Shown one piece after another: positions 568-30,390 of a stretch of DNA of 32,188 nt; within the stretch, counting starts at the first letter, position 1, and every line of letters begins with the position of its first letter. The stretch is from a virus. The notes under the pieces are model-generated. The model ran no database searches, was not told where the DNA came from, and saw only the letters and a list, made by a program, of their open reading frames with translations. A program made the position numbers and the translations under genes. The stretch is from positions 1 to 32,188 of the IMG/VR virus record IMGVR_UViG_3300049719_000171. One strand, given 5' to 3'.

Positions 568-756
568 TCAGTGCGTTGACAATCCCATAGATTTAAAGTA
601 TGAGCGTAGTTTTTTCTTTGTCTCGTCGTTGACGAGCAAGCTTTCACCATCAAGTGACTTGTCGTCAACTAACTCACGTGAGTAATTTTCCTCAGGCTGC
701 GATCCCTCGAGGCTTTCACGAATTGCTTGACGTAACTGTTTGATTGTCAGTTTCAT
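568..756 (-). CDS. Small protein with LRxxIRE N-terminal peptide
   Basis: 62 aa. The ORF extends further upstream, but the ATG at 754-756 is chosen because it gives MKLTIKQLRQAIRESLEG, the same kind of N-terminal peptide seen in four other proteins of this window (9086-9586, 11354-11692, 12856-13161, 29335-30390). The rest is charged and probably helical. The triplet I-R-E before Ser fits the (L/I)-x-E cleavage preference of T4-type prohead proteases. The inferred role is a small internal capsid protein; the body of the protein has no recognised domain. Divergent from the glycosyltransferase at 800. Confidence 0.7.
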   Translation of the reverse strand: MKLTIKQLRQAIRESLEGSQPEENYSRELVDDKSLDGESLLVNDETKKKLRSYFKSMGLSTH

Positions 757-799
757 TAAACAATAGATAGGATGTGAATTAATTTCTTGATATCTACGT

Positions 800-2059
800 A
801 TGACACAAAAGATAAAAGTTTTGATGATTTCAGACATGCAGTTATCGACCTCTGGCGTCGGGACACAAAGTCGCGTCCTCATAAATGGACTGCTTTCCAC
901 AGGTCGTTACACGTTTCGTTGTCTTGGTGCGGCGCTAAAACACGAAGACATGCGCACGATCGTGGTGAACGATGACTTTGTCATAAAGCCAATAAATGGA
1001 TTTGGTGATCCAAATCTAATTCGTCAAGTGCTCGTTTCAGAAAAACCAGACGTTTTGTTACTGTTCACTGACCCACGCTTTTTCATGCATGTGTTTGCAC
1101 ATGAGGACGAAGTTCACCAGATTTGTCCAATAGCCTACAATAATTTGTGGGACAATTTCCCTGCGCCCACGTTCAACAAACCGCTTTATAAGAGCTGTGA
1201 CTTGTTGAATTGCATCAATTGGGTTTCGTACAGCTTTTTGAAGGAATGGGGATTTGAAAACGTTCACTACACGCCTCATGCAGTTCCTGAAGACGTTTAT
1301 TTTCCAATGTCTGACGTTGACGCAAAAAATGCAAAATTAGCGTTCTTTGGTCCTGCACGTGTTGATCACTTCATGCCGCTATTTGTTGGCAGAAATGCTA
1401 GGAGAAAAAATACTGGTGACATCGTGTGCTCGTTCAAGATGTTTTTAGATGAGCTCGAAAAGAAATATGGACACAGGAAGTCAACGTTGGTGATGCACAC
1501 CGATCCATTTGACCAAGAGGGACCAAACCTGCAGGCAGTCGTTGATCTATACAACGTGAAAGACAACGTCGTGTTTTCAAACAACCGCGTAGGGTTTAAT
1601 CAGATGAATGCGTTGTACAATGCGTGCGATGTTGGGATTAATAAGTCAAGCGCAGAAGGTCTGGGTCTTCCAATTTTGGAAATTAAAATGACAGGAAAAC
1701 CCATAATATGCCTGAAAACAGGTGGCTTGACAAAGCAAGTCGAAGACGATGTGACAGGTGAACAATACGGCGTCGCAATTGAGCCAGAAGTGAAAACATT
1801 GGTTGGAACGCAACAAATTTCATTTATCTTTGACGATGCGTGTTCTAACGAAACTTTTGCAAAAGCACTCATGACAGTTTACGAAATGGGTGAAGAAAAA
1901 AGAAAAGAGCTGGGCAATCGTGCAATGTTACATGCAAGAAAAAATTATAGCATGCAACATTTAATTTCAACATGGGATGAAACCTTGACAAAGTTAGTTG
2001 ACGACTGGAAACACAAACGTCTCCCAAACAATAAACGATGGGAGGCGATAACACTATGA
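800..2059 (+). CDS. GT-B glycosyltransferase, GT4-like
   Basis: 419 aa. The N-terminus KIKVLMISDMQLSTSGVGTQ is a Rossmann-like first strand with a glycine loop, as in GT-B enzymes. The C-terminal donor-binding half has VGRNARRKNTGDIV and the E-x7-E motif EGLGLPILE (Glu286 and Glu294) followed by GKPIICLKTGG, typical of the GT4 family of retaining glycosyltransferases. Such enzymes move a sugar from a nucleotide-sugar donor to an acceptor. In phages, acceptors can be modified DNA bases, virion proteins or host surface glycans; nothing here shows which. The stop overlaps the start of the second glycosyltransferase by 4 bp (ATGA), so the two are translationally coupled and may act in sequence or as a pair. 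Confidence 0.88.
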   Translation: MTQKIKVLMISDMQLSTSGVGTQSRVLINGLLSTGRYTFRCLGAALKHEDMRTIVVNDDFVIKPINGFGDPNLIRQVLVSEKPDVLLLFTDPRFFMHVFAHEDEVHQICPIAYNNLWDNFPAPTFNKPLYKSCDLLNCINWVSYSFLKEWGFENVHYTPHAVPEDVYFPMSDVDAKNAKLAFFGPARVDHFMPLFVGRNARRKNTGDIVCSFKMFLDELEKKYGHRKSTLVMHTDPFDQEGPNLQAVVDLYNVKDNVVFSNNRVGFNQMNALYNACDVGINKSSAEGLGLPILEIKMTGKPIICLKTGGLTKQVEDDVTGEQYGVAIEPEVKTLVGTQQISFIFDDACSNETFAKALMTVYEMGEEKRKELGNRAMLHARKNYSMQHLISTWDETLTKLVDDWKHKRLPNNKRWEAITL

Positions 2060-3210
2060 AATCTGTAATTCTTTCTGGTCCCCTCTGCGTCCAAAGTGGA
2101 TACTCCGTCCATGCAAGACAAATCGCGAGCTGGCTTTTATCCAAACCAAATCTTGACGTAAAGTTCCATCTTACACCGTGGGGTACTGTGCCCTGGGAGT
2201 TGCGAGAAACTGCTTGTGACGGCCTCATTGGTGAAATCATGCGCCGCAGCAACCCGTCTCAAAAGGCTGACGTTGCAATACACGTGAAGTTGCCCAATGA
2301 GTTCACTACTGACATGGGAAACATTAACGTTGGCGTTTCCGCAATGGTCGAAACAGATAGGTGCTCACCAAAGTGGGTCGAAGCCTGTAACAAGATGAAT
2401 GCAATCGTCGTGCCGTCATTGCACGCAGCGGCAGCTCTAACGAATTCTGGAACGGTCAACGTCCCGTTACACGTTGTCAACGAGGCGTATAACATTGCTT
2501 GCATCAAAAAAGATCTACCGACGTTGCCTGACTTTGGGACGCCATTCAATTTTTTGTTGTTCGGTCAGCTCACTGCGTCAGACGCTCGCACTGACAGAAA
2601 AAATATCTTCAACACGATCAAGTGGTTCTGTGAGGCATTCAAGGGTAACGACAACGTAGGGTTGGTTATCAAGACAAACCTTGGAAAGAACACCAAGATT
2701 GATCGAGCGAACACGAAGCAGTTATTGGGAGACCTATTGAGACAAGTTCGTAGGTCAGGAAAGCCCAAGGTGACGTTGCTTCACGGTGACATGAGCGACG
2801 ACGAAGTCGCCGCGCTGTACAGGCATCCGCAGATAAAAGCAATGGTCACGCTGTCACGAGGCGAAGGGTGGAACTTACCAGCTTGTGAGGCAGCGGCATC
2901 TGGATTGCCAATCATTGCGACGAACTGGAGCGCACACACTGAGTTCTTGAGCTTGGGAAAGTTTGTCAAAATAGACTACACGCTTCAACAAATTCCGCCT
3001 CAACGTGTCGATGAAAACATCTTTTTGCCCGCAGCGAGGTGGGCTGAAGCGAGCGAACATGACTTCAAGAGCAAAATCTTAAAATTTCATGACCGCCCTG
3101 AAATTCCCACGCAATGGGCGAAAGAACTTCAACCAAAGATAATTGAAAAATTGTCTCTCAATGAAGTGTTCAAGGCGTACGATGCAGCGATCGGAGACTT
3201 ATTGTGTTGA
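2056..3210 (+). CDS. GT-B glycosyltransferase, second copy
   Basis: 384 aa from the ATG at 2056. An in-frame ATG exists at 2038, but a GGAGG ribosome-binding site lies just before 2056 and that start gives the ATGA overlap with the upstream stop. The N-terminus SVILSGPLCVQSGYSVHARQ is a GT-B acceptor-domain start. The C-terminal half holds the E-x7-E motif EGWNLPACE followed by ASGLPIIATNWSAHTEF, a classical GT4 donor-site pattern. It differs substantially in sequence from the preceding glycosyltransferase, so this is not a recent tandem duplication. It likely acts in the same glycosylation pathway; donor and acceptor are unknown. Confidence 0.88.
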   Translation: MKSVILSGPLCVQSGYSVHARQIASWLLSKPNLDVKFHLTPWGTVPWELRETACDGLIGEIMRRSNPSQKADVAIHVKLPNEFTTDMGNINVGVSAMVETDRCSPKWVEACNKMNAIVVPSLHAAAALTNSGTVNVPLHVVNEAYNIACIKKDLPTLPDFGTPFNFLLFGQLTASDARTDRKNIFNTIKWFCEAFKGNDNVGLVIKTNLGKNTKIDRANTKQLLGDLLRQVRRSGKPKVTLLHGDMSDDEVAALYRHPQIKAMVTLSRGEGWNLPACEAAASGLPIIATNWSAHTEFLSLGKFVKIDYTLQQIPPQRVDENIFLPAARWAEASEHDFKSKILKFHDRPEIPTQWAKELQPKIIEKLSLNEVFKAYDAAIGDLLC

Positions 3211-3530: not shown

Positions 3531-3870
3531 ACCGACACCTGTATTTGAGGGTGAAGATGCTGAGCTCTTGTTGAGTGAGCTCGCAAAAGTTCACTTGTCA
3601 GAAGAACAACGAAAAAAACGTCGTGAAACGTGCAAAATGCACATTGAAGAGCGAATGCGACCAAAGGGTTACAAAAATCAACACGTTGGATCTACGTTGG
3701 AAGAATTTTTTGACGAGATTGGTGAACGCAAAGAATTTGAACAGCTTGTTACGAACAAGATGAATAATTATTTGCTTTCTGAAAAATGCTGGGAACAGTT
3801 GCAGTTACACTTTCTTGCTTCACCAATCATAGAAGAAAATGATGATATAGACGGTGACCGGCTTATTTGA
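3511..3870 (+). CDS. Hypothetical small charged protein
   Basis: 119 aa. Overlaps the end of the membrane protein gene by 20 bp. Two ATGs sit in tandem (3511, 3514); the second has better spacing from the GAGG at 3504-3507. The protein is highly charged and probably helical, with no signal peptide, membrane segment or recognised motif. It is the last gene of the plus-strand glycosyltransferase run and ends 8 bp into the convergent DUF1003 gene. Function unknown. Confidence 0.65.
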   Translation: MMATPIEPTPVFEGEDAELLLSELAKVHLSEEQRKKRRETCKMHIEERMRPKGYKNQHVGSTLEEFFDEIGERKEFEQLVTNKMNNYLLSEKCWEQLQLHFLASPIIEENDDIDGDRLI

Positions 3871-4318
3871 GCTTGTCAAGCTTTTCCTGAATTTTGTTCA
3901 GCTTCTTGTGTAGTTCTTCAATTTCAAGTTCAGCCTTTAAGTTAATTCTGTAATCAAATTTTGCGTGAAACCTGTCTTTTTGATTGTGTCTATTGCTTGA
4001 CATCATGATGATCGGAGCTTGAATTGCAGCTAACATTGACAGGAACAAATTTAAAAGAATGTATGGAAATGGATCGTATGGTTTTGTTACGTGACTGTTC
4101 ACAAACATCCACGTTGACAAGCAACCCAAAAATATGAATATGAACGTCCATGAGCCGCCGAACGCAGATATTTTGTCTGCTACGCGCTGCCCGAACGTCA
4201 ATTTTTCTTTTGGAGGTTCACGAACAATTTTAAGACAATGCGTGCCCGTTTCCGTCTCAATGAGCTCAAAGACATGTGCAATTTCTGTTGTGTCCGCAGC
4301 GTCTTGATCGTCATTCAT
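3863..4318 (-). CDS. DUF1003 family membrane protein
   Basis: 151 aa. It carries the family pattern: FGQRVADKISAFGGSWTFI, then a first membrane segment (about residues 55-75), then DPFPYILLNLFLSMLAAIQA and PIIMMSSNRHNQKDR with a second membrane segment (about 85-107), then a DYRINLKAELEIEEL coiled C-terminus. DUF1003 proteins are two-helix inner-membrane proteins of unknown biochemical function, found in bacteria and in some large phages. The start overlaps the stop of the NlpC/P60-like gene by several bases, so this is the last gene of a three-gene minus-strand operon. Confidence 0.88.
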   Translation of the reverse strand: MNDDQDAADTTEIAHVFELIETETGTHCLKIVREPPKEKLTFGQRVADKISAFGGSWTFIFIFLGCLSTWMFVNSHVTKPYDPFPYILLNLFLSMLAAIQAPIIMMSSNRHNQKDRFHAKFDYRINLKAELEIEELHKKLNKIQEKLDKLK

Positions 4319-5641: not shown

Positions 5642-6475
5642 GTGATTAGGACATTTCGTTATCCACTTCATCCATCAAAAGAACTTCATTACAACGTATT
5701 GATCTTGCTTATAAATCATTTTTTCGACGAGTAAAAGCTCATGAAACACCAGGTTATCCGCGTTTCAAAGGAACTAATCGTTATCGATCGTTTACAACAA
5801 GGTAAAGTTCTTTTTGGACACATCAAATTTGAAGCAAACGGCAAATGGTTTTTGTCTATTATATGTGATCTTTGTGAAGCTCCTGCCAAAGTAAAATCCA
5901 CTAAAATATGTGGTATCGACGTTGGTATTACACATTTTGCAACTCTTGATAATGGAATTACAATCGAAAACCCTCGTTTTTTTAGGGAAAGTCAAGTAAA
6001 ACTTGCAATTCAGCAACGAAACTTGTCTCGAAAAAAACGAGAAAGCAAATCTCGAAAACGAGCAAAATTAATTGTTGCAAAGATGCATTTGCACATTCAT
6101 AATCAACGACTTGATTTTGCTCGAAAACAAGCATCACAACTTTTTAATGAATTTGATGTAATTTGTTTTGAAGAACTCAACATCAAAGGAATGATAGAAA
6201 ATAATGAAAAGTATTTAGCAAAATCAGTTACAGACGTAGCATGGGGTATGTTCATCGCTTGTCTCAAATCCAAAGCTGAAAATGCTGGGAAGTGGGCGAT
6301 CGGTGTAGATCCTGTTGGAACGTCACAAGAATGTTGTGGGTGTGGAATTATAAAGAAAAAATCACTTTATCAACGAATTCATGAATGTTCTTGTGGAGAA
6401 AATCTTGACAGAGATCATTGTTCGGCAAAAGTTATTAAAGCGCGTGGTCAACGCGTGGTCACTGAAATATTTTAA
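5642..6475 (+). pseudogene. tnpB: TnpB, decayed N-terminus with intact nuclease core
   Basis: Three pieces align with one TnpB. From GTG 5642: IRTFRYPLHPSKE, a typical TnpB start. From about 5689 in another frame: LQRIDLAYKSFFRRVK, then TPGYPRFKGTNRYRSF, ending at TAA near 5804. Then, back in the first frame, the ORF from 5741 holds the rest. In that ORF (244 aa) the RuvC-I motif GIDVGITHFA (Asp60), RuvC-II FEELNIKG (Glu144), a CCGCG...CSCG zinc finger and RuvC-III NLDRDHCSA (residues 222-228) are all present. About 60 residues after PSKE and about 35 before GKVLFG are missing relative to ordinary TnpB. The 244-aa ORF could still be translated, but it lacks the N-terminal recognition half, so I call it a pseudogene. 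No tnpA is nearby. Confidence 0.85.
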
Positions 6476-9097: not shown

Positions 9098-9586
9098 TTT
9101 GTCCAAAATCTTCTCGACTGCGCCTTCAATTGCGTTGTGTATTGGACGCTGCACGAGCAGTGACATGTCTTTTGGATTTTCAGCAATGTCTAACGCACTC
9201 TTTGCGGAAGAGATTTCTTCTTCAATGTAGTCAGTGAGTAAGTCTTTCTGTTGAAGTTTAGGCTTCAACGTCCTGTCGCACAGTTTCACGAGTTGGTCTG
9301 CCACCTTAAAAGCATCATTAATATCACCACGAAACATCTCAGTTGTTGAAATTGTTCCACTTGCATCGTCCATTCTTTCATTTCCTGGACGATTTCCTGA
9401 ATTTTTATATAATTCAACACCTAGTTTATCATGCAATGACCACGCTCGCGAAATCACGTCAGCAATTTCATCGTAACCTTTGTCACGAATTGCGCTAATA
9501 GCATTCTTCGCCTCAGAAGATTTGCTATCATAAGTGCCCTCTTTGATGATCTTGCGAATGTGCTCACGAAGTTGACGAATGTTCAT
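9086..9586 (-). CDS. Protein with LRxxIRK N-terminal peptide
   Basis: 166 aa from the ATG at 9584-9586; a TTG two codons upstream is less likely. The start MNIRQLREHIRKIIKEGTYD belongs to the recurring LRxxI(R/K)xI peptide group, with I-K-E before Gly as a possible (L/I)-x-E protease site. The body is helical and charged, without a recognised domain. The gene begins 12 bp after the HAD gene stop, so the two probably share a transcript. The inferred role is an internal capsid protein; the evidence is only the shared N-terminus. Confidence 0.72.
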   Translation of the reverse strand: MNIRQLREHIRKIIKEGTYDSKSSEAKNAISAIRDKGYDEIADVISRAWSLHDKLGVELYKNSGNRPGNERMDDASGTISTTEMFRGDINDAFKVADQLVKLCDRTLKPKLQQKDLLTDYIEEEISSAKSALDIAENPKDMSLLVQRPIHNAIEGAVEKILDKSLN

Positions 9587-9598: not shown

Positions 9599-10009
9599 TT
9601 ACTCGTCAATGTTCAACATCATGATTGCTAAATCAACGTGATACTTTGTCAATCCACTATACGTTTTTGTTTTCACTTGGTTGTTCTCATGTCCAGAAAC
9701 CCACAGGTCGTCTATGACAACGTATCTCATGTCACGATGATGATCGTATTGAACTAAGTAATCGTAAATTTCTTCGCCGCGACACCACAACTCGGACGTT
9801 TTTCCATTGACAATGCCAATAAAACCTAAACTTGACAATGTCTGTTGAAGCGATTGAGTTGTTTGTCCAATTCGCCATGTTGAAGTTATGACAATTTCTG
9901 CACCCGTTTCTTTTACAATGTCATTCAGGAGCAAAACTTTGTCTGGCTCAATTTCTGGATTGCCACGTGAATTCAACACGCCGTCGATGTCAAGAAAAAT
10001 TAATTTCAT
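9599..10009 (-). CDS. HAD-superfamily phosphatase-like protein (SAK-repair type)
   Basis: 136 aa from the ATG at 10007-10009; a GTG at 10015 is also in frame. MKLIFLDIDGVLNS carries the HAD motif I DxDGV with Asp7 and Asp9; EIVITSTWR supplies the motif II Thr/Ser; YVVIDDLWVSG supplies the motif IV acidic pair. The compact layout and the TSTWR signature match the HAD domain named for Swiss-Army-Knife RNA repair proteins. Such proteins are probable phosphatases acting on nucleotide or nucleic-acid ends. Next to a nuclease, a role in end processing is plausible. A TGA-TACTAT box ends 6 nt before the ATG. Confidence 0.82.
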   Translation of the reverse strand: MKLIFLDIDGVLNSRGNPEIEPDKVLLLNDIVKETGAEIVITSTWRIGQTTQSLQQTLSSLGFIGIVNGKTSELWCRGEEIYDYLVQYDHHRDMRYVVIDDLWVSGHENNQVKTKTYSGLTKYHVDLAIMMLNIDE

Positions 10010-10045
10010 GAACACATAGTATCACACTTTGATGAAAAATACACA

Positions 10046-10909
10046 CTATGGACAATGCGGCGTGTTTTTGAATGCACAATACTTGCACGACGTCTCAGTT
10101 TTGTTCTTCAATGCAATGCCTCTTGACACAGACGAGAGCATGTTGTTGATCACTTTTAACGCCCTACCACGAGTTATGTCTCCGATTGACACTAACACGA
10201 GCTCAATTTTTTGACCAACCTTTGCATCACGTTTTAACAACAAAAATCCAGCACGTATGTCTTTCAAGTCAATGTTATACTTTTTTGCGTAGAAATTCTT
10301 GTAATATATTAGTTGAGACTGCAAAACTTTGTCGTCTCTTTTTTCTCGTCTCCACGAAAATTTCGTTGTCTTGAAGTCAATTATATAGTACGTGTATTTA
10401 CCGTTCTTTTGACGTGTTTTGATTATGCAGTCGACGAAGCCTTTGAATGCATGTTCAGTTCCTTCGACGGCTTCGTACAATAACTCTTCAGAGCTAACCC
10501 ACTCCCATCCAGGAAATCGTTCATCAAGAAATGGTTTTAGCTCAGACGTTACTTCAACTAACCCACGTTTTGCGCTCGCAAGTGAAAATGTTTCTTCAAA
10601 TTCAGGTTGCTTGTGCCATTCATCTTCTAACTTTTTGATGCCAATGTCAATCTTTGCGTCTCCATGTTTTAACAAATTTTCGCAACACTTGTGTTGAACG
10701 CTTCCAAACACAAGGTATGGGCTTGGAACGTTGATATCAATGTGCATCACATGTATTAGTTTGTGAGCATACGAACAGTTGACCCAACAGGCGACTTCTG
10801 AAAAGCTAACATGAGGTTTACCCGTGGGCAACAACTTATACTTGTGCTTTGCGACTGATGCCAGCTTCTCGTCAGTCGCCTCTTCGCGTGACAATTTAAC
10901 TTCTTCCAT
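10046..10909 (-). CDS. PD-(D/E)XK nuclease with Fe-S cysteine set (Cas4/AddB/RecB-like)
   Basis: 287 aa. VSFSEVACWVNCSYAHKL is the N-terminal helix of the RecB/Cas4 nuclease family. The core follows: His73 in FGSVQHKCCENLL, Asp160 in KGFVDCII, Asp178 and Lys180 in YIIDFKTT, and QSQLIYYKNFY (motif Q-x3-Y). Four cysteines are spaced as in iron-sulfur nucleases: Cys45, then Cys275-x2-Cys278-x7-Cys286 at the C-terminus. Enzymes of this type degrade or trim DNA ends with a metal-dependent site and a structural 4Fe-4S cluster. In phages they serve recombination, repair or host DNA breakdown. No helicase domain is present. Confidence 0.88.
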   Translation of the reverse strand: MEEVKLSREEATDEKLASVAKHKYKLLPTGKPHVSFSEVACWVNCSYAHKLIHVMHIDINVPSPYLVFGSVQHKCCENLLKHGDAKIDIGIKKLEDEWHKQPEFEETFSLASAKRGLVEVTSELKPFLDERFPGWEWVSSEELLYEAVEGTEHAFKGFVDCIIKTRQKNGKYTYYIIDFKTTKFSWRREKRDDKVLQSQLIYYKNFYAKKYNIDLKDIRAGFLLLKRDAKVGQKIELVLVSIGDITRGRALKVINNMLSSVSRGIALKNKTETSCKYCAFKNTPHCP

Positions 10910-10967: not shown

Positions 10968-11357
10968 ATGACCGCCACATACGTTCAACAGCTGGTTTCT
11001 GAATTCATGTTACATCCATTTGCATATACAATGGGAACGTTGACCGTTATTGGCGCATTGCTGAAAAAATTTGCTCCAAATTTACGCGTCACAAGGGCGC
11101 TCAACGCGCTCTCAACAGACGCTCCCGAACTTGCTACAATCGCTGCGAGCTTCATGAGCAAGACTTCATTGTTAAAAGCTCTTGAATTGGGCGGACACGT
11201 GATAAGCGACGTTGCAAAAGCAGTTGAAACGCCTGAAACACCTGTCGTAGAAGATAAAAAAGAAGTGACTGCTCCCGACGTTGACGAGCTGCAAAAAATC
11301 AAAGCGACACTTGAACAACTACTTGCTTCACTTTCACAGGACGGAAAAACAAAGTGA
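10968..11357 (+). CDS. Small protein with one membrane-like segment
   Basis: 129 aa. Residues about 15-30 (HPFAYTMGTLTVIGAL) form a moderate hydrophobic segment. The C-terminal half is helical with a flexible Pro/Glu-rich stretch (ETPETPVVEDKKE). GGGAG about 15 bp before the ATG is a possible ribosome-binding site. The stop overlaps the next gene by 4 bp. No family recognised. It opens the plus-strand virion block, so a structural or assembly role is possible. Confidence 0.65.
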   Translation: MTATYVQQLVSEFMLHPFAYTMGTLTVIGALLKKFAPNLRVTRALNALSTDAPELATIAASFMSKTSLLKALELGGHVISDVAKAVETPETPVVEDKKEVTAPDVDELQKIKATLEQLLASLSQDGKTK

Positions 11358-11692
11358 AGACCACAATTGAAACTCTACGTAAACTAATTCGCGAAGCATT
11401 TGAACAAGCTGATGCGTACGCAAAGACAGAATATCCTCAAGATTATCACGACATAAGGAAAACAAAAAAGGTCGACAAACCTGATAGCATCGGATCTGGA
11501 AAAGAAACGTCAATGCGGACCAACACGCCTGTCGAGCAAAAAACAAAGCTCGTCGCAAAGGAACTTCAAAAGTTGGGTAAGCCAATAAAGCAGGATTTAT
11601 TGAAGTTCATGAAGACGTTCAACGAAGACGACCTGGTCGTCAATAATGCGAGTTGGTTTGCGAATGAGTTCGTGAAGAAACAAGCTAATTGA
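11354..11692 (+). CDS. Protein with MKT...LIREA N-terminal peptide
   Basis: 112 aa, GTG start with GTGA overlap to the previous stop. The N-terminus MKTTIETLRKLIREAFEQ is the member of the recurrent peptide group closest to the T4 capsid-targeting sequence MKTYQEFIAEA: both begin MKT and carry I-x-E followed by Ala. The remainder is basic and charged, with a short helical C-terminal domain (KPIKQDLLKFMKTF...NNASWFANEF). It is the best candidate in the window for a small internal capsid protein; the function after injection is unknown. Confidence 0.72.
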   Translation: MKTTIETLRKLIREAFEQADAYAKTEYPQDYHDIRKTKKVDKPDSIGSGKETSMRTNTPVEQKTKLVAKELQKLGKPIKQDLLKFMKTFNEDDLVVNNASWFANEFVKKQAN

Positions 11693-11912: not shown

Positions 11913-12815
11913 ATGGCATCTCTTTACGGGCCAATATTGACAGGTGTGGGATTAATCCAGGACGGAAAACTCACAAAGTCAGCAAAAGATCGTTTTTTAC
12001 AGGAAGTTTTATTTCTTTTACTTTCAGGTAATGACAATGGAAAAGGCGGATCACCTTTGACTAAAATCTTCAATTCGTTGTTTCCTTTACCACCCGTCGC
12101 TGGTCCGCTCATTGTAAATGCCACAACATTGTCTACCGAAAATGCGTTTTGGTTCAAACCAGATCCTTTTGCGACGCTCATAGCGACGCAGCTTAATGAT
12201 CCCAAAAATAATCCAATTTGGCACACAATTTTCGAGGACATACTTCTTGAACAAACCGCGCTCGCGCTTGACATAAACGGTTCGACGCCGCTCGCGCCGG
12301 CGGTATTCGACGCATCATTTTTGGCACCGAACATTTCTTTTCCTCCAAACCCACCCGACCTTGCGCTTGCACTAAACGTGCAATTGCCACAACTCGCCGT
12401 AAAATTGGTCGATCTTGGAATTAGCTTGCAAATGCCGAGCATTCCTTCACCACCAAGCATAAAATTTCCAAGCATAAATTTACCTGTGCCGCCGCTTATT
12501 TTGTTTGACCTGTGTATTGGTTTAATAAAAATGCCGTTCGACCTACTGCTGAAGTTAGTTTTACCACCTGCGATTGACATCGTGCTTGATTTGCCAGGAC
12601 TGCCCAAAGTAGTGTTTGATCTCGCGTTTGATGTCGTGTTGCAGCTACTCATAGATTTGGGTTTACTTTTGATTGTTCCAAAATTGTTCATTGCGTCTTT
12701 GCTAATTTGGTTAAAAGACATTGTCGCAATGATATGCGTTGATATCGTTGGGTTAATCGTTGGTGCGAGCGGTGGAATGACGAAAACGGTCGCAACATTG
12801 ACAGGATTAGTATAA
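11913..12815 (+). CDS. Hydrophobic proline-rich virion-type protein
   Basis: 300 aa. The first 130 residues are ordinary. Residues about 140-195 are proline-rich with a repeating short pattern (PSIPSPPSIKFPSINLPVPP). Residues about 190-290 are strongly hydrophobic with alternating leucine/valine stretches broken by DLP/PLP turns, enough for several membrane segments. No signal peptide. It lies between small virion-type genes and gp25, so it is probably a structural or baseplate-associated protein. Such hydrophobicity is unusual for a baseplate part and would fit a protein inserted in the host membrane during infection. No family recognised. Confidence 0.75.
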   Translation: MASLYGPILTGVGLIQDGKLTKSAKDRFLQEVLFLLLSGNDNGKGGSPLTKIFNSLFPLPPVAGPLIVNATTLSTENAFWFKPDPFATLIATQLNDPKNNPIWHTIFEDILLEQTALALDINGSTPLAPAVFDASFLAPNISFPPNPPDLALALNVQLPQLAVKLVDLGISLQMPSIPSPPSIKFPSINLPVPPLILFDLCIGLIKMPFDLLLKLVLPPAIDIVLDLPGLPKVVFDLAFDVVLQLLIDLGLLLIVPKLFIASLLIWLKDIVAMICVDIVGLIVGASGGMTKTVATLTGLV

Positions 12816-12855
12816 TTTTTTTCATTAGTAACGTAGAAGAATATTATTTAACAAT

Positions 12856-13161
12856 ATGGCAATCATGAACGAAACACAACTACGACGCATAATTCGAGAA
12901 GAGATTTCACAATATCGACGCAATGATGGTGCAAAAATACGAGTTTTTGGGCAAATTGTGGAGGTGATGAGTTTGAACCTGGCAAAGCTTTTGCAACAGT
13001 AAAAAATGGTACTTGGGTTAATCCGGATGGTGAGCCGTGGGGCAAGGGTGTTCAGAAAACGCTTGATAATTGCAAAGCGTGGCAGTGGCAAAGGCGGTGG
13101 TGAAATGGTTGATGGATATCCAATTGAAGATTTTGATAACGTAATTGTCGTACAAAGTTGA
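12856..13161 (+). pseudogene. Split gene with LRRIIREE N-terminal peptide and NPDG segment
   Basis: From ATG 12856, MAIMNETQLRRIIREEISQY opens a 48-aa ORF stopping at 13002. A second frame (about 12918-13107) reads ANCGGDEFEPGKAFATVKNG and then TWVNPDGEPWGKG, which looks like real protein. The first frame then resumes with KRGSGKGGGEMVDGYPIEDF up to TGA 13159-13161. Two compensating frame changes within about 150 bp would rebuild one ~100-aa protein. The frame breaks may be true mutations, sequencing indels (A5 at 12932-12936 and T5 nearby) or recoding. The N-terminus belongs to the capsid-targeting-like group. This occupies most of the 425-bp gap before gp25. Confidence 0.6.
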
Positions 13162-13239: not shown

Positions 13240-13707
13240 GTGGCAACATTTTCGTTCAAGTCTGTCGGCGTAACTCAAATTGATGCACAAACAAATGCAA
13301 CGAAAGCTACACCCACGCCTGTTGGAATTTTGACACCGTTGAAGTTGTCGACGACTGACGGGTTGTTCGTGATGAGTTATTCGCTTGCAGACCAAGTCAA
13401 CGATAACTTGAAAAATTTGCTCCTGACGAACTGGGGCGAGCGGCTTGAACTGTATGATTTCGGCGCAAACTTACGTCCGTTAATGTCTGAGTTCGCAACC
13501 GATCAAGACTTTGGCACGCAGGCAATACAGCGAATTTCAGCCGCCGTCAGTAAATGGATGCCATACATTGAGCTCGATGACTTCAGCGTCGACACTGTGA
13601 CAACGGGAAACAAAAATCTCGCGATAAAGGACATTACGGTAACTTACGACGTGCCGTCATTGAACGTTCAAAAGAAAAGCTTAAAGGTTCGAGTGTTCGC
13701 GCTGTGA
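13240..13707 (+). CDS. 25: Baseplate wedge protein gp25
   Basis: 155 aa, GTG start. It has the gp25/GPW signature: QVNDNLKNLLLTNWGERLEL, then YDFGANLRPLMSEF, then a helix (QAIQRISAAVSKWMPYIELDD) and a C-terminal beta hairpin (LAIKDITVTYDVP). gp25 is the conserved baseplate wedge piece that starts sheath assembly in contractile tails. It is normally followed by gp6 and it is here, 17 bp downstream. ACTATTTATTAT immediately precedes the GTG and recurs before the 20994 gene. Confidence 0.93.
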   Translation: MATFSFKSVGVTQIDAQTNATKATPTPVGILTPLKLSTTDGLFVMSYSLADQVNDNLKNLLLTNWGERLELYDFGANLRPLMSEFATDQDFGTQAIQRISAAVSKWMPYIELDDFSVDTVTTGNKNLAIKDITVTYDVPSLNVQKKSLKVRVFAL

Positions 13708-13724: not shown

Positions 13725-15563
13725 ATGTCTGTCAACCAAGACAATCTAAAATCAGTGCGGCAGCGACAATTTCTTGTTGGTGATTTTAACAGTTTTCGCG
13801 CATCGCTGCTCGACTATGCTCGACAATTTTATCCTGATCGCATCAGTGATTTCAGCGAAGCATCATTGGGCGGTTTATTTCTTGATTTTGCAGCCGCAGT
13901 GGGCGACAACATGTCGTTCTACTTATCGCACCAGTTTAGCGAACTGAACTCAACGACAGCTGTTGAACTGACAAACATAGAAAGATCGTTGATAGCTGAT
14001 GGCGTGCCAATCACCGGTGCTGCTCCTGCAATAGTTCCTGTCACGGTGTACGTTCAAATACCAGTGATATTACAGAACAATTCCCAACAACCAAATCCTG
14101 ATGCGTTGCCAATAATAAAACAGGGATCAATATTTTCTGCTGACAATGGTGTGCAATTTATTCTGCTAGAAGACATAGATTTTAGTAGCAAGTATCAGGA
14201 TGGCACGTACGTGTCAACAGTTGTCATAGGACAAAAAGCGTCAAACGGAACTCCACAAACATACATATTTTCTCTCGCTGGACTTTGCATAAGCGGTAAC
14301 GTGACGTCAGAAACAGTTTCATTGGGAACGTTTCAACCTTTTAAGAAAATAACGCTAAGTAATCCAAACGTGACAGACATATTGTCAGTGTCAGACGGAG
14401 TGGGCAACAATTATTATCAAGTGACGCACTTGACGCAAGACGTCGTGTATCGTAACGTTCTCAACACCACTGTTGACGCAGACATTGTGAAAGACGTCAT
14501 AAAGATTGTTCCTGCACCGTATCGATATACAGCAGACGTAGACTTAGCAACGCGCTCCACAACAATTACGCTTGGCGGTGGTTCTGCTGACACTCTTGAG
14601 GACGACGTAATTCCTGATCCGTCTGACTTTGCGATCGCTTTTCCTTATTCAAAGACATTTTCAAGAATATCAATCGATCCATTGATGCTGATACAAACGA
14701 AGACACTTGGCGTGTCTGCGATAAACACAACGCTCACGATCACATATCGTTATGGTGGTGGATTAAATCACAATGTTCAGAAAAATTCAATAAAGAACAT
14801 AAACACAATCAACGTGTTTTTTCCAAACAATCCATCAGCAACGATTGCATCTGCAGTTAAAAATAGCATTGAAATAACAAACGACATTCCAGCAAAAGGC
14901 GGTGATGACGCTCTAACGCCTTCTGATTTGTCAACACTTGCGCCACAAGTTAAAAATTCTCAAGAAAGAATTGTGTCTCGTGAGGATTTATTGGCGAGAA
15001 TTTATACGTTGCCATCAAATTTTGGACGAGTGTTTAGGGCACAAGCAAAGTCAAATCCAATTAATCCACTCGCAACGCAGCTCTACATAATTTCAAGGGA
15101 CATTGATGGAAACTTGACAACGTCGTCTGACACGTTGAAACAAAATTTGGTTCGTTATCTGAACCCATATCGACAAATCGCAGATGCAATAGACGTGCTC
15201 GACGCGCCAGTAGTAAATTTCACCGTAAATTTTAATATTTTAGCAGATCCATCGTTGAACAAGAGTGTCATATTACAAAACATTATTACACAGCTAATAA
15301 AACTTTTTGATGTAAAAAATGTTAATATCGACCAACCTTTGCAACTTAGTAACATTCGAAACACGATATTTTCGACGACAGGAGTTTTGTCGATAATTGA
15401 TCTACAAATTCAAAACATCTCGGGTGTCGTCAACAATCGTCAGTACAGTGACGTCGTACACGACATTGCAAATAATACGTTCATGGATTTATCACTACCA
15501 CCTCGTGGCGGCGTCTTTTTCGTCGCTTATCCAAATTATGACATAATCGGCAAGGCATCATGA
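13725..15563 (+). CDS. 6: Baseplate wedge protein gp6 (baseplate J-like)
   Basis: 612 aa, close to T4 gp6 (about 660). The N-terminus has FRASLLDYARQFYPDRISDF and GGLFLDFAAAVGDNMSFYL, the classic start of gp6/J-like wedge proteins. The end has NPYRQIADAIDVLDAPVVNF followed by the NFNILADPSLNK domain and the IRNTIFSTTGVLSIIDLQIQ segment, typical of the C-terminal dimerisation part. gp6 forms the inner iris ring of the baseplate. The stop overlaps the next ATG (ATGA), so the wedge genes are translated in series. Confidence 0.92.
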   Translation: MSVNQDNLKSVRQRQFLVGDFNSFRASLLDYARQFYPDRISDFSEASLGGLFLDFAAAVGDNMSFYLSHQFSELNSTTAVELTNIERSLIADGVPITGAAPAIVPVTVYVQIPVILQNNSQQPNPDALPIIKQGSIFSADNGVQFILLEDIDFSSKYQDGTYVSTVVIGQKASNGTPQTYIFSLAGLCISGNVTSETVSLGTFQPFKKITLSNPNVTDILSVSDGVGNNYYQVTHLTQDVVYRNVLNTTVDADIVKDVIKIVPAPYRYTADVDLATRSTTITLGGGSADTLEDDVIPDPSDFAIAFPYSKTFSRISIDPLMLIQTKTLGVSAINTTLTITYRYGGGLNHNVQKNSIKNINTINVFFPNNPSATIASAVKNSIEITNDIPAKGGDDALTPSDLSTLAPQVKNSQERIVSREDLLARIYTLPSNFGRVFRAQAKSNPINPLATQLYIISRDIDGNLTTSSDTLKQNLVRYLNPYRQIADAIDVLDAPVVNFTVNFNILADPSLNKSVILQNIITQLIKLFDVKNVNIDQPLQLSNIRNTIFSTTGVLSIIDLQIQNISGVVNNRQYSDVVHDIANNTFMDLSLPPRGGVFFVAYPNYDIIGKAS

Positions 15564-25932: not shown

Positions 25933-26736
25933 TCAAATTTTAGATTTTTGCCACAATAAAAAGTCATCGTTGCACACATATTGTTTAAGTTTTGCGTTCC
26001 ATTTTTTGGGTAATGTGTGTCTAAGAGTTATTAAGAAACGTAATAACGGACGAACAGGCGGGTGATTTATTTCTCTTGTGTCTTCTTCGTTGTCTTTCCA
26101 CATAAACTGTTTTTTGAATTCACTGAAACCAAACCCATCAAAGAAGTTTTCTCCACCCACAAGCGGGATGTACCATAACGAAGGAATTCCATGAGGATTA
26201 ATTTTTAGCGGAATTTCCTTCACGAACTGTTTTAACAACTCTTTTCCAATGTTATCGTTCTCAACGTGAGACTTTAATTTTTCATAAGCAGTATATTCAA
26301 CTGGTGGACTGACGAACAACACAGGCTTTCTTTGCTGCCTTGCAAGTGATATTTCGTGTGGAGTTCCAACGCTGTAAATATTTGTTGGACACCTTGCAAT
26401 CACAATGTCACATGTGTCGACCATGCGTAGGTCAACGTGCATTGTTTCACGATATTTTGATACAAGTTCACCACGCGCCTCTGCACCTGCCTGCGTGTCT
26501 TCAAACGTCCATTTATTCAAATCGCACGTCGTGTTGACGCCCTCAACCCCATAACCAAAAAACCCACGCACAAGTGGTTTTCGCCATGGGTCAAACACGA
26601 CGCACCCCTGAGCCTTCAAAAAATCTCCCATGCGTGTGCGCCAGCCATTCGCTGCTTCCTCTTCACGTGAAGCAACAAAGTCCATTGGACCACTAAGATA
26701 AACGCGCACGCCGCTTAGGAAATTTGTGTTTGACAT
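25933..26736 (-). CDS. Nucleoside 2-deoxyribosyltransferase-like protein
   Basis: 267 aa. The N-terminal ~150 residues form a Rossmann-like NDT domain: VRVYLSGPMDF (strand 1 and phosphate loop), GWRTRMGDFLKAQGCVVFDP, DLRMVDTCDIVIARCP, then SVGTPHEISLARQQRKPVLF with the likely catalytic Glu in GTPHE. The ~110-residue C-terminal extension (SLWYIPLVGGENFFDGFGFS...) is not typical for NDT and is basic near the end. Family members move or release nucleobases from deoxynucleosides, or hydrolyse nucleotides. In phages they feed nucleotide salvage or base-modification routes. The start overlaps the previous stop by one base (TAATG). Confidence 0.82.
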   Translation of the reverse strand: MSNTNFLSGVRVYLSGPMDFVASREEEAANGWRTRMGDFLKAQGCVVFDPWRKPLVRGFFGYGVEGVNTTCDLNKWTFEDTQAGAEARGELVSKYRETMHVDLRMVDTCDIVIARCPTNIYSVGTPHEISLARQQRKPVLFVSPPVEYTAYEKLKSHVENDNIGKELLKQFVKEIPLKINPHGIPSLWYIPLVGGENFFDGFGFSEFKKQFMWKDNEEDTREINHPPVRPLLRFLITLRHTLPKKWNAKLKQYVCNDDFLLWQKSKI

Positions 26737-26948
26737 TAGAACATGTCCAGTTCAATTATCGGTCGCCACTCTGCATTCGGCGCCAAACAATCACCATGAC
26801 CAACAATATAGTAAACATACCCATTGTTTTCAACGCGTGACAGTATTTTTACTTCATCGCGTTGTGTACGCCATCGCAATACATCACATATTTCAATCAT
26901 TTTTTCATGTGCATATTCATGCGCACTTACGTCTAATAAAAATTTCAC
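26736..26948 (-). CDS. Small hypothetical protein, 70 aa
   Basis: 70 aa. The GTG at 26946-26948 is chosen: it overlaps the upstream stop as GTGA and has a GGGA ribosome-binding site; a TTG at 26966 is also open. The sequence has a helical N-terminal half (DVSAHEYAHEKMIEICDVLR), then strands with VENNGYVYYIVGHGDCL. No family recognised. It is coupled between the VWA/metallopeptidase gene and the NDT-like gene. Confidence 0.7.
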   Translation of the reverse strand: MKFLLDVSAHEYAHEKMIEICDVLRWRTQRDEVKILSRVENNGYVYYIVGHGDCLAPNAEWRPIIELDMF

Positions 26949-28573
26949 TTTGATTTCCCGTCGCAAGGCATCTTTCGCTCGTCGTTTGCAATGTCACGTT
27001 GTGCATCGTTGTGAGCTTTCACTTGATTGTCAACGTCACGCATTGCATTTTCAAGCGCACCAATCATTTTTTGAGCCTCAGACACCGTGCAGAGTGGATT
27101 TTTCTTCATCGTGTCGCACGTGTTTTTGATCAACGCGTCCTTTGTCGGACCGGGATTTTTGAAATCAATCACTAAATTTGACATTTTTCTTTCTCCTACA
27201 ATGAATATTTTTGTTTCATTCGTGTCAAAAGCAAGTTTGTTGCCTGCCGGCAAAACCCAACCTCGTTTTTTGCGACAACTTTTTGGCTTGGGCGCGTCGC
27301 CGTCGGTGACAATCAACAACGCGTCCCACCTGCCACGATTTTTGGGATCGTTGAACAGTTCGGTGGGTGCGTTGAAATCCGTTCCACCCGTCTTCACGCG
27401 CTTCAACTTCACCTTTGCACCTTTTCGCAGTGTGATCACTTGTTTTCGATCAAGTTCACAATCAAATGGAACGTAATCTACTTCAACTTTGCGCGTCAGG
27501 TTCAATATTTCTGCAATGAAATATGACAACAAATCGTCGCTAACGCTGCCGCTTTGGTCGACCGCGACCAACAACTTTGCGGTGCGGTTTCTTTTGACGC
27601 CTGGATGGTCATAAGGTTGCTTACGATTTAGCTTTTTGATCGTTGAACTGCGCCCACCCGTTGCAAGAGAACCTACGAACTGTTTTAGCGCTTTTCTCCA
27701 GTCAATTGTCCGCGACACCCTTTGACGAATTTCATCGCAAACGGAGGCAGGTATGTTACCCCATCCATTTGTCTGTTGGTCGGCATGCTGAATGGCTTTT
27801 TTGATTATTGACTTCACTTTTGCTTTAGTTCTATCATTAGAACCATCATCCGAGTTGCCGTCTTGCCACTCTGAATGATTGTCGAGCTGTTTTCCTAATA
27901 AACCTTTTTGGAACGTTGCATTGCTTCCTGATGGATCGTCAGAAGCCGAGTTATCACCATTTTCTGTTCCTTCGTCACTTTCGGAACCCTTTTTTCCCTT
28001 AAGACCTTTACCGGGCGAAGAACCTGCACCGGGTTTATTTCCAGCTGTTCCGTCACCTTTTCCACCGTCACAGTTTCCGCTCTCAATCTCTTTTTTTAGT
28101 CTCTCAAAGTACCATTCGCTTGCCTGTAGCGGCGGAAACTTCTTCACCAGTTCGACGAGTGCAGGATCACCTTGAATTACAGTTCCAGGCACCAGCGCGC
28201 TCTTGGGAAGCTGTATGTTTTTGTCATTCGTAGTCTTAATGATTGAATTTACTGCTAAATCAGTCGCATAGTTCCAGACGAGTGCCCACTTTCTGTCAGG
28301 CATTCGAGAAAAGATGTGCTCGTTGATAATGTGATAGAGTTCATGAACAATTACGCCCATGATTTCTTGTGGTTGAAGTGACATGAAGAACTTTGGTGAC
28401 CACAACAATTGTAGCTCGTCAAGTTCTTTGTTGTACAACACGCCCGCAGTTTCAATTGTGTCACACGGTATCTTGTGAATGTTGCGTGAAATTTCGGCGT
28501 AAAAAGGCACGTGCCGTAGCAAGTTCACGAGGTGTTTGTCGAGGTTGAATTCTGTCTCAACTACTTCGTACAT
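26945..28573 (-). CDS. Metallopeptidase-like plus VWA-like protein (DUF2201 type)
   Basis: 542 aa. The N-terminal domain holds a zinc peptidase motif, HELYHIINEH (His77-Glu78-x2-His81), in the arrangement of the DUF2201 putative metallopeptidase family. Residues about 165-245 are a low-complexity Gly/Ser/Asp linker. The C-terminal domain is VWA-like, with the MIDAS metal site DQSGS (Asp339, Ser341, Ser343), a TGGTDF Thr and VTDGD. In bacteria such proteins usually work with a MoxR-type AAA+ ATPase as chaperone or maturation pairs; no ATPase is visible in this window. TGG-TATAAT ends 7 nt before the ATG. Confidence 0.87.
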   Translation of the reverse strand: MYEVVETEFNLDKHLVNLLRHVPFYAEISRNIHKIPCDTIETAGVLYNKELDELQLLWSPKFFMSLQPQEIMGVIVHELYHIINEHIFSRMPDRKWALVWNYATDLAVNSIIKTTNDKNIQLPKSALVPGTVIQGDPALVELVKKFPPLQASEWYFERLKKEIESGNCDGGKGDGTAGNKPGAGSSPGKGLKGKKGSESDEGTENGDNSASDDPSGSNATFQKGLLGKQLDNHSEWQDGNSDDGSNDRTKAKVKSIIKKAIQHADQQTNGWGNIPASVCDEIRQRVSRTIDWRKALKQFVGSLATGGRSSTIKKLNRKQPYDHPGVKRNRTAKLLVAVDQSGSVSDDLLSYFIAEILNLTRKVEVDYVPFDCELDRKQVITLRKGAKVKLKRVKTGGTDFNAPTELFNDPKNRGRWDALLIVTDGDAPKPKSCRKKRGWVLPAGNKLAFDTNETKIFIVGERKMSNLVIDFKNPGPTKDALIKNTCDTMKKNPLCTVSEAQKMIGALENAMRDVDNQVKAHNDAQRDIANDERKMPCDGKSK

Positions 28574-28589: not shown

Positions 28590-28728
28590 CGTTTTTTCGT
28601 TTTTTATCATTTACGGGAACATAATTGTCGTCGTCAATGTAGAAAATGTTTCTGTTCGCAAATTTTGTGGGCTCTAAATCTAAGTTTGTCATGCCAAGAG
28701 ATCCATCGGGATTAACAACATATACCAT
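28582..28728 (-). CDS. Small protein with VNPDGSLG motif, 48 aa
   Basis: An open frame from ATG 28726-28728 to TAA 28582-28584, starting MVYVVNPDGSLGMTNLDLEP and ending in a basic tail. The V-N-P-D-G-S-L-G motif is the same as in the 30900 and 31742 genes, which supports it being real. A TGA-TATAGT box ends 7 nt before the ATG. The motif may be a small beta-turn module; the function is unknown. It is divergent from the peptidase gene at 28793. Confidence 0.65.
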   Translation of the reverse strand: MVYVVNPDGSLGMTNLDLEPTKFANRNIFYIDDDNYVPVNDKKRKNVV

Positions 28729-28735
28729 GTGCTTT

Positions 28736-28744
28736 ACTATATCA
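28736..28744 (-). promoter_or_regulatory. Extended -10 promoter of the 48-aa gene
   Basis: Minus strand TGA-TATAGT (5 of 6 matches to TATAAT, with the TG extension) ends 7 nt before the ATG at 28728. The upstream context AAAGTGTGATA is the same as in front of the HAD gene at 10009. A leaderless transcript is predicted. Confidence 0.55.
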
Positions 28745-28792
28745 CACTTTCACAAAAAGTTCATTATCCTCCAAACAATTATAACAAAAAAC

Positions 28793-29325
28793 ATGCATTT
28801 CAAGACGCATAAGTTCTTGTCAAAGAATTTTTGGATTTGAATAATCTTCGACATCCAAGTCAAATCATTGATCTCGATGTAACGTGTGACGGTTTTTCGT
28901 CATATGGAATGTATAGTTTCAGATCAATGAAGTTGATGGTGAACGTCAAGAAATCGCGAACACCAGTGAAAATGCCTGGGTTTAGTTGGTCATACACAGG
29001 TTACAAAGCCGATTTGACAATACCTGGAATATTGTGTCACGAAATTGGGCATCACACTCATCATGTGTTAGAAACACAAAAACCTGTTGATGACGTCACA
29101 ATTCACACGCTTCTCAAATCTATTCGTAAAAATGAAAAGGCAGTCTCAAGTTATGAACCAAACGTGTTCATTTTGAACCCAAACTTGTTGATGTTGGGCC
29201 GTCCAAAACGATGGCATTTTTTGACTGTCGACATGAAGTTGAAACCGCTTCACAATGAACCCTGGAAAAACGTGCTCATGAATGCGCACAAAAAATTAAT
29301 TTGTGCAGCAGAAAAATTGGATTAA
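28793..29325 (+). CDS. Zinc peptidase-like protein (HEIGHHTHH), probably frameshifted start
   Basis: The main frame runs from TTG 28831 to 29325 (164 aa) and contains LTIPGILCHEIGHHTHHVLE, an HExxH zinc-site motif with extra histidines, as in gluzincin or ImmA-like peptidases. In that frame no ATG precedes it and a stop lies at 28810. A better start is ATG 28793, with TATAAC ending 7 nt upstream, which reads MHFKTHKFLSKNF and then hits TGA at 28838-28840. A -1 shift at the T5 run (28828-28832) would join the two as KNF-LDLNNLRHPSQ. This could be a sequencing indel or recoding. Its substrate is unknown. Confidence 0.65.
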
Positions 29326-29334
29326 TAAATAATT

Positions 29335-30390
29335 TTACGATTCCCAAGATTTATCTTCTTCATTCCATGTTTGAATGATACCTTCTTCGGCAATGTCGCC
29401 TGTTGTGTCTTCATCTTCTTCGGGAGGCATTTGTGCATGTAACTGATCTTTATATATAAAGAATTTCCAAGTCTTCTTTACTGTGCGTTTTGCAAGCATA
29501 TCATTAGTGGACGCAGTAGTTTTATTTGGAAGATATTTTTTAAGAATTTTTGATATTGCAAGTTGTACTTCTTTTTCGTTGTCGCTCCGAGCTTTTATGG
29601 CAGCCTTTTTTTCTTCTTTGTGTGTATCGCTCCATGCGCTTTCTGCGTCTTGTAATTGTTTTCGAAGTTCATCAGGTACTTTACGAATTGCATTTTTGAC
29701 CGGTATTGCCATTCGTTGCGCCCAGAGTTTTGACCATACAGGATCAGTGTATACACCTATTGATTCGTTAAATTTTTCTACACTATCAACAAGTGTTTCT
29801 GCTTTTTCAACGTCTTCACTCGACATACGTTTCTTTATTTTAATGACTTTTGGTTCACCATTATAATTCATAAAATCAAACGCCATCGTATATGCTGGCG
29901 ACCAATTTCCACCACCTTCACCCAATCTTTCTTGTGACTCCTGTAATACAGCTTCACTAATCGCTTCAGGAAATTGTTGTTCTACTTGTTCGAATGTTAA
30001 TTTTTTCCAATTTTTCTGATCACCATAAACGCCCAAACCATAGTCATTTTCAGGAACTATTGTTTTGTATAACTTACGTGTTTTTTCTGTATCAGCTTCA
30101 GTCCATTTACCATTTTTATACGCATATGCATCAGCAGAACTTTCTTGATTTGGATAAAGACTTGCATATTTTTCGTTATCGTTTATCCAAAATGCGTACA
30201 ACGTCTTTCCAACTGCAAAACAATTGTGCATGTTGCTATTGTCAAGGTGCAATTGAGTTTTAAATTTTTCAACCGCTCCTGGCCACTTTTCGTTAACGTC
30301 GTCAATGTCAACTTTAACCGGTTTCATTGAATTGATGTCAACAATTTCTTCATGTATGATGCGTCGGAGCTGTGCTTCTGTGATTTTCAT
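29335..30390 (-). CDS. 351-aa protein with LRRIIHEE N-terminal peptide
   Basis: 351 aa. MKITEAQLRRIIHEEIVDIN is a clear member of the recurrent N-terminal group, with I-H-E before Glu. The body is soluble and charged: a mixed N-terminal domain (residues about 25-135), a second likely processing site (AISEAV, LQESQERLGEGGG at about 145-160), a helical middle rich in Lys/Glu, and an acidic C-terminus. CATAAATA lies 18 nt upstream of the ATG, a 7/8 match to the T4 late promoter box, which would fit late expression of a packaged protein. It is the largest candidate internal protein here. No enzymatic motif recognised. Confidence 0.78.
   Translation of the reverse strand: MKITEAQLRRIIHEEIVDINSMKPVKVDIDDVNEKWPGAVEKFKTQLHLDNSNMHNCFAVGKTLYAFWINDNEKYASLYPNQESSADAYAYKNGKWTEADTEKTRKLYKTIVPENDYGLGVYGDQKNWKKLTFEQVEQQFPEAISEAVLQESQERLGEGGGNWSPAYTMAFDFMNYNGEPKVIKIKKRMSSEDVEKAETLVDSVEKFNESIGVYTDPVWSKLWAQRMAIPVKNAIRKVPDELRKQLQDAESAWSDTHKEEKKAAIKARSDNEKEVQLAISKILKKYLPNKTTASTNDMLAKRTVKKTWKFFIYKDQLHAQMPPEEDEDTTGDIAEEGIIQTWNEEDKSWES

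Follow-up and report, generated by a model that had tools for sequence, protein, structure and literature searches.

The virus record IMGVR_UViG_3300049719_000171 of IMG/VR comprises 32,188 bases, all of which were analysed (hereafter the window), and exhibits a T4-like tail context. Five of its genes, three on the minus strand and two on the plus strand, encode proteins that start with a similar short peptide (hereafter the tag; Table 1). As proposed in a previous sequence-only reading of the window, this peptide is in frame at the N-terminus of all five proteins, which was confirmed by translation. The open reading frames (ORFs) of at least 40 residues in all six frames of the window were scored with a 14-residue profile, which was built from 343 tags of other phages, the window and its close relatives being left out. 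Exactly the five tagged genes reached a score of at least 10, the runner-up being an internal match with a score of 8.3. Among 624,839 sequence windows of reversed proteins, which served as a null, one reached 10.3, the score of the weakest of the five genes, and none reached 18.3.

The sequence-only reading had described gene 4 as a single gene spanning 12856-13161. Its tag is intact, but its frame is broken by an in-frame TAA at 13000-13002 and the coding signal carries on in a neighbouring frame. This copy is therefore frameshifted, by decay or by an assembly error. The four intact tagged proteins (genes 1, 2, 3 and 5) gave no match in Pfam and PHROGs scans. For gene 5, no relatives of the body were found among viral contigs in 4 pattern matches, and the AlphaFold model obtained from the single sequence was poor, with a mean predicted local distance difference test (pLDDT) score of 43.5.

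Table 1. Tagged genes and neighbouring baseplate genes of the window, with the predicted cleavage site (/) and the score of the 14-residue profile.
Feature	Position	Strand	Length (aa)	N-terminus	Tag codons	Predicted cut	Profile score	Basis
Tagged gene 1	756-568	-	62	MKLTIKQLRQAIRES	756-715	AIRE/S	24.6	translation
Tagged gene 2	9586-9086	-	166	MNIRQLREHIRKIIKEG	9586-9539	IIKE/G	10.3 (weakest of five)	translation
Tagged gene 3	11354-11692	+	112	(M)KTTIETLRKLIREA, GTG start	11354-11395	LIRE/A	18.3	translation
Tagged gene 4	12856-13002	+		MAIMNETQLRRIIREE, tag intact	12856-12900	IIRE/E	31.1	translation
Tagged gene 5	30390-29335	-	351	MKITEAQLRRIIHEE	30390-30349	IIHE/E	31.9	translation
gp25-like baseplate wedge gene	13240-13707	+						domain match
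Baseplate wedge gene	13725-15563	+						query used to find relatives

Relatives of the window were found through the baseplate wedge protein at at least 80 loci in viral contigs (33-92% identical) and in six records of known phages (27-30% identical), namely four of Flavobacterium phage immuto, Microcystis phage Mel-JY01 and one 484-kb uncultured phage. The tag, with a consensus of approximately MKITxxxLRxII[RK]E, recurs across large uncultured phages. A DNA pattern for MKITxxxLRxIIRE, which has 10 fixed residues, matched at least 120 stretches of viral contigs, a control pattern with permuted codons matched none, and two neutral MKIT patterns, in which only 7 residues were fixed, gave 24 and 86 matches. 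Across 84,980 cellular genomes, the tag pattern matched 5 stretches, which lie on 2 contigs. A broader pattern matched 20 of 31 records longer than 100 kb (16 of the 18 that the first pattern had selected and 4 of the 13 others), and none of the 31 when read backwards.

For counts of tags per genome, a simple script took the longest ORFs as genes, and a score of at least 10 at the N-terminus was required with a profile of 21 columns, the highest score among 664,994 sequence windows of reversed proteins being 10.3; this profile was trained partly on the counted genomes and on loci overlapping parts of G023 and G027 (labels starting with G or L are our own). In G001 (309 kb) and G002 (369 kb), N-terminal tags were observed on 15 of 468 and 11 of 578 genes, respectively, and in G023 (293 kb) and G027 (289 kb) on 26 of 406 and 26 of 380, where 0.13-0.16 would be expected by chance in each of the four. 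Three were found in G012 and one in G008. The tag thus recurs in relatives, where the sequence-only reading had proposed to look for it, with up to 26 tags per contig of approximately 290 kb. In immuto (160 kb; host Flavobacterium sp. LMO8), tag-like starts were found by the first profile at 113144, 102250, 102836, 81481 and 123311; the start at 113144 reads MKKSQLRQIIKE, followed by the predicted cut and then by ALDAST. Two short tag-like peptides gave one match (LR756508) and none in tblastn searches of known-phage records, tblastn being weak at such lengths.

Tagged genes can form islands. In G027, 15 consecutive called genes are tagged (52335-58201) and in G023 nine (52386-56950), while G037 exhibits tags on 28 of 35 called genes between 146,500 and 161,200, and on 29 genes within the 40 kb examined. 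The bodies behind the tags are distinct in 349 of 370 tagged proteins by a k-mer test, the median size of these 349 proteins being 115 residues. In an alignment of 70 tagged proteins of at least 170 residues, only MKITxxQLRxIIREE is kept, the Glu being the sole invariant column. As the expression used for the selection was built on the tag and required this Glu, the alignment demonstrates the diversity of the bodies and is no proof of the tag. At E <= 0.01, the same 70 proteins gave matches to 19 Pfam families and to 28 PHROGs, in almost every case through a single member, and PHROG matches were obtained for 3 of the 20 longest proteins scanned one by one. Among ten tagged proteins picked as long or enzyme-looking, an SLT transglycosylase, DUF2608 and LRV repeats were found above the curated cut-offs. 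Some tagged bodies also exhibit what look like P-loop and HAD-like motifs. For the terminal tagged ORF of G061 (L275:1-600), motifs suggested an ADP-ribosyltransferase-like protein, which is not claimed, as the ORF is cut by the contig end and no such Pfam match was obtained.

With regard to the tag itself, it is evident from the sequences that it spans approximately 14-22 residues, terminates in one or two (I/L)-x-E sites and is kept at the protein level. The residue at P1 of the predicted cut was examined in 87 tag-like starts, with this and later positions masked and excluding loci that had been retrieved with the tag pattern: Glu was found in 66 and Asp in 3, and some of the remainder may be non-tags, as the expression was loose. 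The I/V/L at P3 of the tags was fixed by the search expression. In 349 deduplicated tags, for which Glu at P1 was required, the information content is 2 bits at P1' and falls to background approximately ten residues further on. Among the tags with Glu at P1', 138 of 201 carry a second [LIVM]xE 4-10 residues downstream of the first, compared with 34 of 95 among those with A/S/T/G at this position (Fisher 1.6e-7, to be taken as a guide only, since the tags are related and were counted as independent), and in later windows of equal width the frequency of this motif is 5-18%. This split suggests that the second site follows where the first has an unfavourable P1'. Tags with two sites include one ending IIREEKQKLLKE, which is followed by S. 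In a test that makes no use of the tag, the number of proteins with [LI]xE ending at residues 8-16 was compared with that in four later windows of equal width. It was raised in G064 (12/34 vs 3-5), G061 (18/62 vs 5-11), G037 (14/43 vs 4-10), G027 (49/243 vs 21-36), G023 (44/251 vs 24-29) and immuto (32/148 vs 14-21).

The prohead protease S77 (PF03420, gp21-type) was found in 8 of 20 records of relatives, comprising all 8 of at least 98 kb and none of the 12 shorter ones, and the capsid protein family Gp23 (PF07068) was found in the same 8 records; immuto has both. S77 is present in 16 of 18 tagged records longer than 100 kb and in 1 of 8 tagged records of 19-88 kb; another 5 relatives, of 5-76 kb, gave no match to it. 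The sequence-only reading had looked to a gp21-like protease in the genome, and had regarded the lack of any prohead protease of the (L/I)xE type as evidence against itself. The protease is present in the long relatives. The window record, at 32 kb, includes no head genes, and the point can be answered in the relatives only.

In 25 of the 27 loci holding both the protease and the capsid gene, among the 80 loci examined, a tag-like start (score of at least 5) lies between these two genes, the profile having been trained on some of the same loci and several of the matches being weak. With the genes other than those for the protease and the capsid protein named by position and by analogy with T4, we take the order of the head operon to be terminase, tagged small gene, portal, protease, tagged small genes, scaffold-like gene and capsid protein. 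The capsid proteins carry a comparable site. In the same 80 loci, the propeptide of all 36 capsid proteins with ..NQxxQ continues as [VL]L[KR]E, so that its P3-P1 residues resemble the I-[RK]-E of the tag, and the Glu of this site is invariant across six aligned capsid proteins. A gene that we presume, from a motif, to encode a peptide deformylase-like protein also lies in the head operon, directly before the tagged gene following the protease (G001 170166-170666, G002 273283-273774 and L196 5943-6452). The head cluster of L196, which comes from a metagenome numbered close to that of the window, was considered as the head region of the window phage itself and rejected, its G+C content being 56.5% as against 40.5%.

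The comparison of phages argues strongly for packaging and cutting, and the corresponding part of the sequence-only reading is well supported by the tags in the head operon, the capsid site and the Glu at P1. The peptide is very probably a capsid-targeting propeptide of the T4 type, belonging to a new and greatly expanded sequence family, and the proteins that carry it are probably packaged and cut. The tag would dock each protein to the prohead core during head assembly. The S77 prohead protease, presumably also the enzyme that trims the major capsid protein at L-[KR]-E, would then remove the tag after I-[RK]-E and/or after the second [LI]xE. The freed bodies would remain in the head with the DNA, and at least some of them may enter the next host, as the T4 internal proteins and Alt do. 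Injection of the tagged proteins and a role as effectors, which had also been put forward, are suggested by analogy with T4. Such phages would maintain islands of cargo genes.

The T4 system, as described in excerpts of the papers cited here, offers the closest parallels. T4 gp21 cuts after L/I-X-E, the propeptides of the internal proteins (IPs) comprise 10-19 residues, and in the IPIII tag an Asp at position 10 prevents processing while targeting is kept (PMC9026906). Ip1-3, which inhibit GmrSD restriction systems, lack homology except for an N-terminal leader by which they are directed to packaging (PMC12373910), and the loss of ipIII is reported to cost infection of one E. coli strain (PMC9391042). 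The tag resembles the capsid-targeting sequence of T4 IPI-III and Alt, which is cut by gp21, in being a short N-terminal peptide on otherwise unrelated proteins that ends with (L/I)xE. As in T4, S77 and Gp23 accompany it, here in the long relatives, and the cargo genes differ among close relatives (PMC9026906, PMC12373910). In contrast to the T4 sequence, the tag exhibits a different sequence, a basic P2 and often two tandem sites, and it occurs in islands, in at least three classes and in multi-tag ORFs. By eye, the T4 peptide MKTYQEFIAE, as quoted in the sequence-only reading, and MKITKRQLRRIIREE have little in common beyond the Glu site. T4 has three IPs and Alt, as against the 26 tagged genes of G023, the 26 of G027 and the 29 within the 40 kb examined of G037.

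Likewise, the protease of phiKZ-like giant phages (SPN3US gp245) cuts after Glu, acts on N-terminal propeptides with multiple sites and favours Ser at P1', according to excerpts of PMC10052503. Nevertheless, in the AXE motif of the phiKZ type P3 is Ala, whereas it is Leu in all 36 capsid sites, a position left free in the search. The P3 of the tags (I/V/L), being set by the search expression, is no test of AXE likeness. In SPN3US, six of the eight N-terminal propeptides comprise 111-254 residues, and the excerpts of PMC10052503 describe no shared short tag.

Several observations weigh against a packaged and cleaved tag. The window record gave no S77 match, the head genes of this phage lying outside it, and the closest records searched (G012, L005, L003 and L189), all of which are short, likewise gave none. 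It was also missed in 2 of 18 tagged records longer than 100 kb and in 7 of 8 shorter ones, records which may be incomplete. Among neutral controls of at least 40 kb, S77 was found in 1 of 10 and 3 of 10, i.e. in 3 of 6 longer than 100 kb, one of which is tagged. S77 thus goes with the tag yet is also frequent in large phages, and is a weak discriminator alone; its co-occurrence was rejected as sole proof. Low counts of N-terminal tags were obtained for G003 (2), G004 (3), G005 (3) and immuto (4). By the profile, G010, G011 and Mel-JY01 have no N-terminal tag, yet Mel-JY01 has S77 and Gp23. One tagged protein exhibits a lysozyme domain that is also known from tails. The commonest P1' residue in the tags is Glu (58%), whereas the six aligned capsid proteins have S, A or V at this position, and the second site could be an amphipathic helix carrying on. 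No rise was observed in the tag-free test in G002 (34/393 vs 27-37), G003, G005 or G012. The overlap between training and scored loci in the head operon and the relatedness of the tags in the Fisher test, both mentioned above, count on the same side.

The comparison of close relatives revealed how tags and bodies are combined. At the gene 4 locus, the window matches L004 over the DNA of the preceding gene (12564-12820) and then over the leader and tag of gene 4 (12823-12906, + strand, 89%). Past 12906, no blastn match to L004 (E <= 1e-10) is observed until 13183, just before gp25. The homology passes through the tag and then stops, and the body behind it has been exchanged. In the place of gene 4, a different body is present in L001, L003 and L004, and no gene in L005. 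Gene 5 is absent from G012, in which the sequences matching window 29325 and 30888 are only 18 bases apart. Gene 2 is mostly missing in L003, where the alignment jumps from window 9231 to 9549, and has a 74% identical copy in L189, while the tag and body of gene 3 are both kept in L003 and L005. These sequences make it plain that the body can be swapped behind the tag at one locus and that tagged genes come and go among close relatives.

Two further tag classes were recognised besides the first (class a). The second, LLREYIRxLLxE, was found on 24 ORFs, with occurrences in L361, G061 (L555) and G023, and the third, MIKLKxxLxE, which comprises 10 residues and sits on varied bodies, on 25 ORFs, with occurrences in G064 (L559, L560), L343, L369, L386 and Mel-JY01 (W02); these counts include some duplicates from overlapping loci. 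In 15 pairs of homologous bodies, one phage exhibits a class-a tag and the other a tag of the MIKLK class, for instance G064:34345/L342:146 (64% over 124 residues) and G064:25942/L369:3288 (65% over 105), and in several of these pairs the shared region begins well within the body. Homologues without a recognised tag form 291 pairs for class a, and 38 and 28 for the other two classes, part of them being fragments, fusions or starts overlooked by the rules. Three paralogues in L361 keep almost the entire second-class tag while the proteins are 48-53% identical overall. For one such body in L361, an AlphaFold model from three sequences reached a pLDDT of 64.2, and Foldseek returned several acetyltransferases among the top 50 matches. 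As none of these had E <= 0.001, a GNAT-like assignment stays a hint.

ORFs with two or more tags make up 32 of 602 tagged ORFs, including a few near copies. The tags lie 41-198 residues apart in these 32, and two to four tags per ORF are observed in L379:3696-4949, L323:11992-12945, L374, L381 and L275:3085-3729. The internal tags often follow E-S or E-G, as though a polyprotein were cut at each tag. We would give even chances to a broader proposal, namely that in a large group of uncultured T4-like jumbo phages a general address label loads dozens of proteins per particle, that interchangeable label classes feed one packaging route, that label and body modules recombine, and that multi-label polypeptides are cut by the prohead protease.

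The tagged proteins might instead be head-core (scaffold-like) or DNA-condensing structural proteins, which are cut and then kept or expelled and are not injected effectors. Some tagged genes indeed lie in the head operon beside the protease and the scaffold-like gene, most tagged proteins are small, and the 70 longest match few known domains. In T4, gp22, gp67 and gp68 are such core proteins, according to excerpts of PMC9026906. This explanation is nevertheless unlikely, as the tagged genes of G023 and G027 are nearly all outside the head operon, in islands, genes 4 and 5 are absent from close relatives, and some bodies look enzymatic, such as those with the SLT transglycosylase and DUF2608 domains and, presumably, those with the P-loop and HAD-like motifs.

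It is more improbable still that the tag stays on the protein, as an amphipathic helix for docking or membrane binding, and serves another purpose, at a replication compartment, a membrane or the tail. The tag does read as a basic amphipathic helix, and gene 4 lies just upstream of gp25, as do tag-like starts in immuto (81481) and Mel-JY01 (162421); a place beside a baseplate gene is odd for a head-cargo protein. However, Glu is common and Asp rare at P1, the conservation fades past the second (L/I)xE, and tag-like starts are found on head-operon genes. In addition, the tag classes are alike in little but their (L/I)xE end, and they sit on homologous bodies.

At the DNA level, the identity of tag codons within genomes is lowest at third positions (0.30-0.63) and highest at second positions (0.60-0.84) in five genome sets. 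Codon sharing is near expectation in G001 (0.43 vs 0.40) and G002 (0.31 vs 0.35), and above it in the island genomes G023, G027 and G037 (0.53-0.62 vs 0.34-0.45), which suggests recent duplications. That the similarity is that of a repeat, a recombination site or a translation signal at gene starts, with no peptide function, is scarcely credible: homology at the tag coincides with one body exchange and the three island genomes share codons beyond the usage prediction, but third positions are the least conserved in all five sets, and G001 and G002 keep the residues while their codon sharing stays near expectation.

A capsid-targeting propeptide therefore remains the preferred reading, for which T4 provides the precedent of a short N-terminal peptide that marks packaged and injected anti-defence proteins, but few of them. 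Should the tag indeed denote packaging, one could read from sequence what many uncultured large phages carry in their virions. Candidate injected proteins would then number in the hundreds, most of them lacking a known domain, and chosen proteins could perhaps be loaded into phage heads by the same means. Which proteins a jumbo phage brings with it would become open to direct testing. No account of the tag was recognised in the literature, searched as titles and the starts of abstracts, with most subscription journals and bioRxiv preprints lying outside its scope, and the tag strings used as queries returned no paper. Large aquatic phages are covered in PMC12619734 and PMC9123017, and the shared genes given in the former include a prohead core protein protease; "N-terminal" is absent from the texts of both. 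In a jumbo phage review (PMC13282480), neither "capsid targeting" nor "prohead protease" is present.

Turning to the surroundings of the tagged genes, no tRNA gene was found in the window. A TnpB-like protein (OrfB_IS605, Cas12f1-like_TNB) is encoded at 5741-6475, amid phage genes. The genes around the tagged ones encode a DUF2201 metallopeptidase with a VWA-like domain, HAD_SAK_2, DUF1003, a nucleoside deoxyribosyltransferase and a PD-(D/E)XK nuclease (26945-28573, 9599-10015, 3863-4318, 25933-26736 and 10046-10909). A tagged or tag-like gene just upstream of the gp25-like gene is observed in the window (gene 4), L001, L003 and L004 as well as in the two known phages named above, and this gp25-like gene is annotated as a baseplate assembly protein in immuto and as a tail lysozyme in Mel-JY01. 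With regard to possible hosts, tagged contigs are binned in two metagenome-assembled genomes, those of Halobacteriovorax sp. (PBIO01000025.1) and Methylococcaceae bacterium TMED69 (NHDW01000006.1), which may give hints; PBIO01000025.1 and one IMG/VR contig are equally long (101,404).

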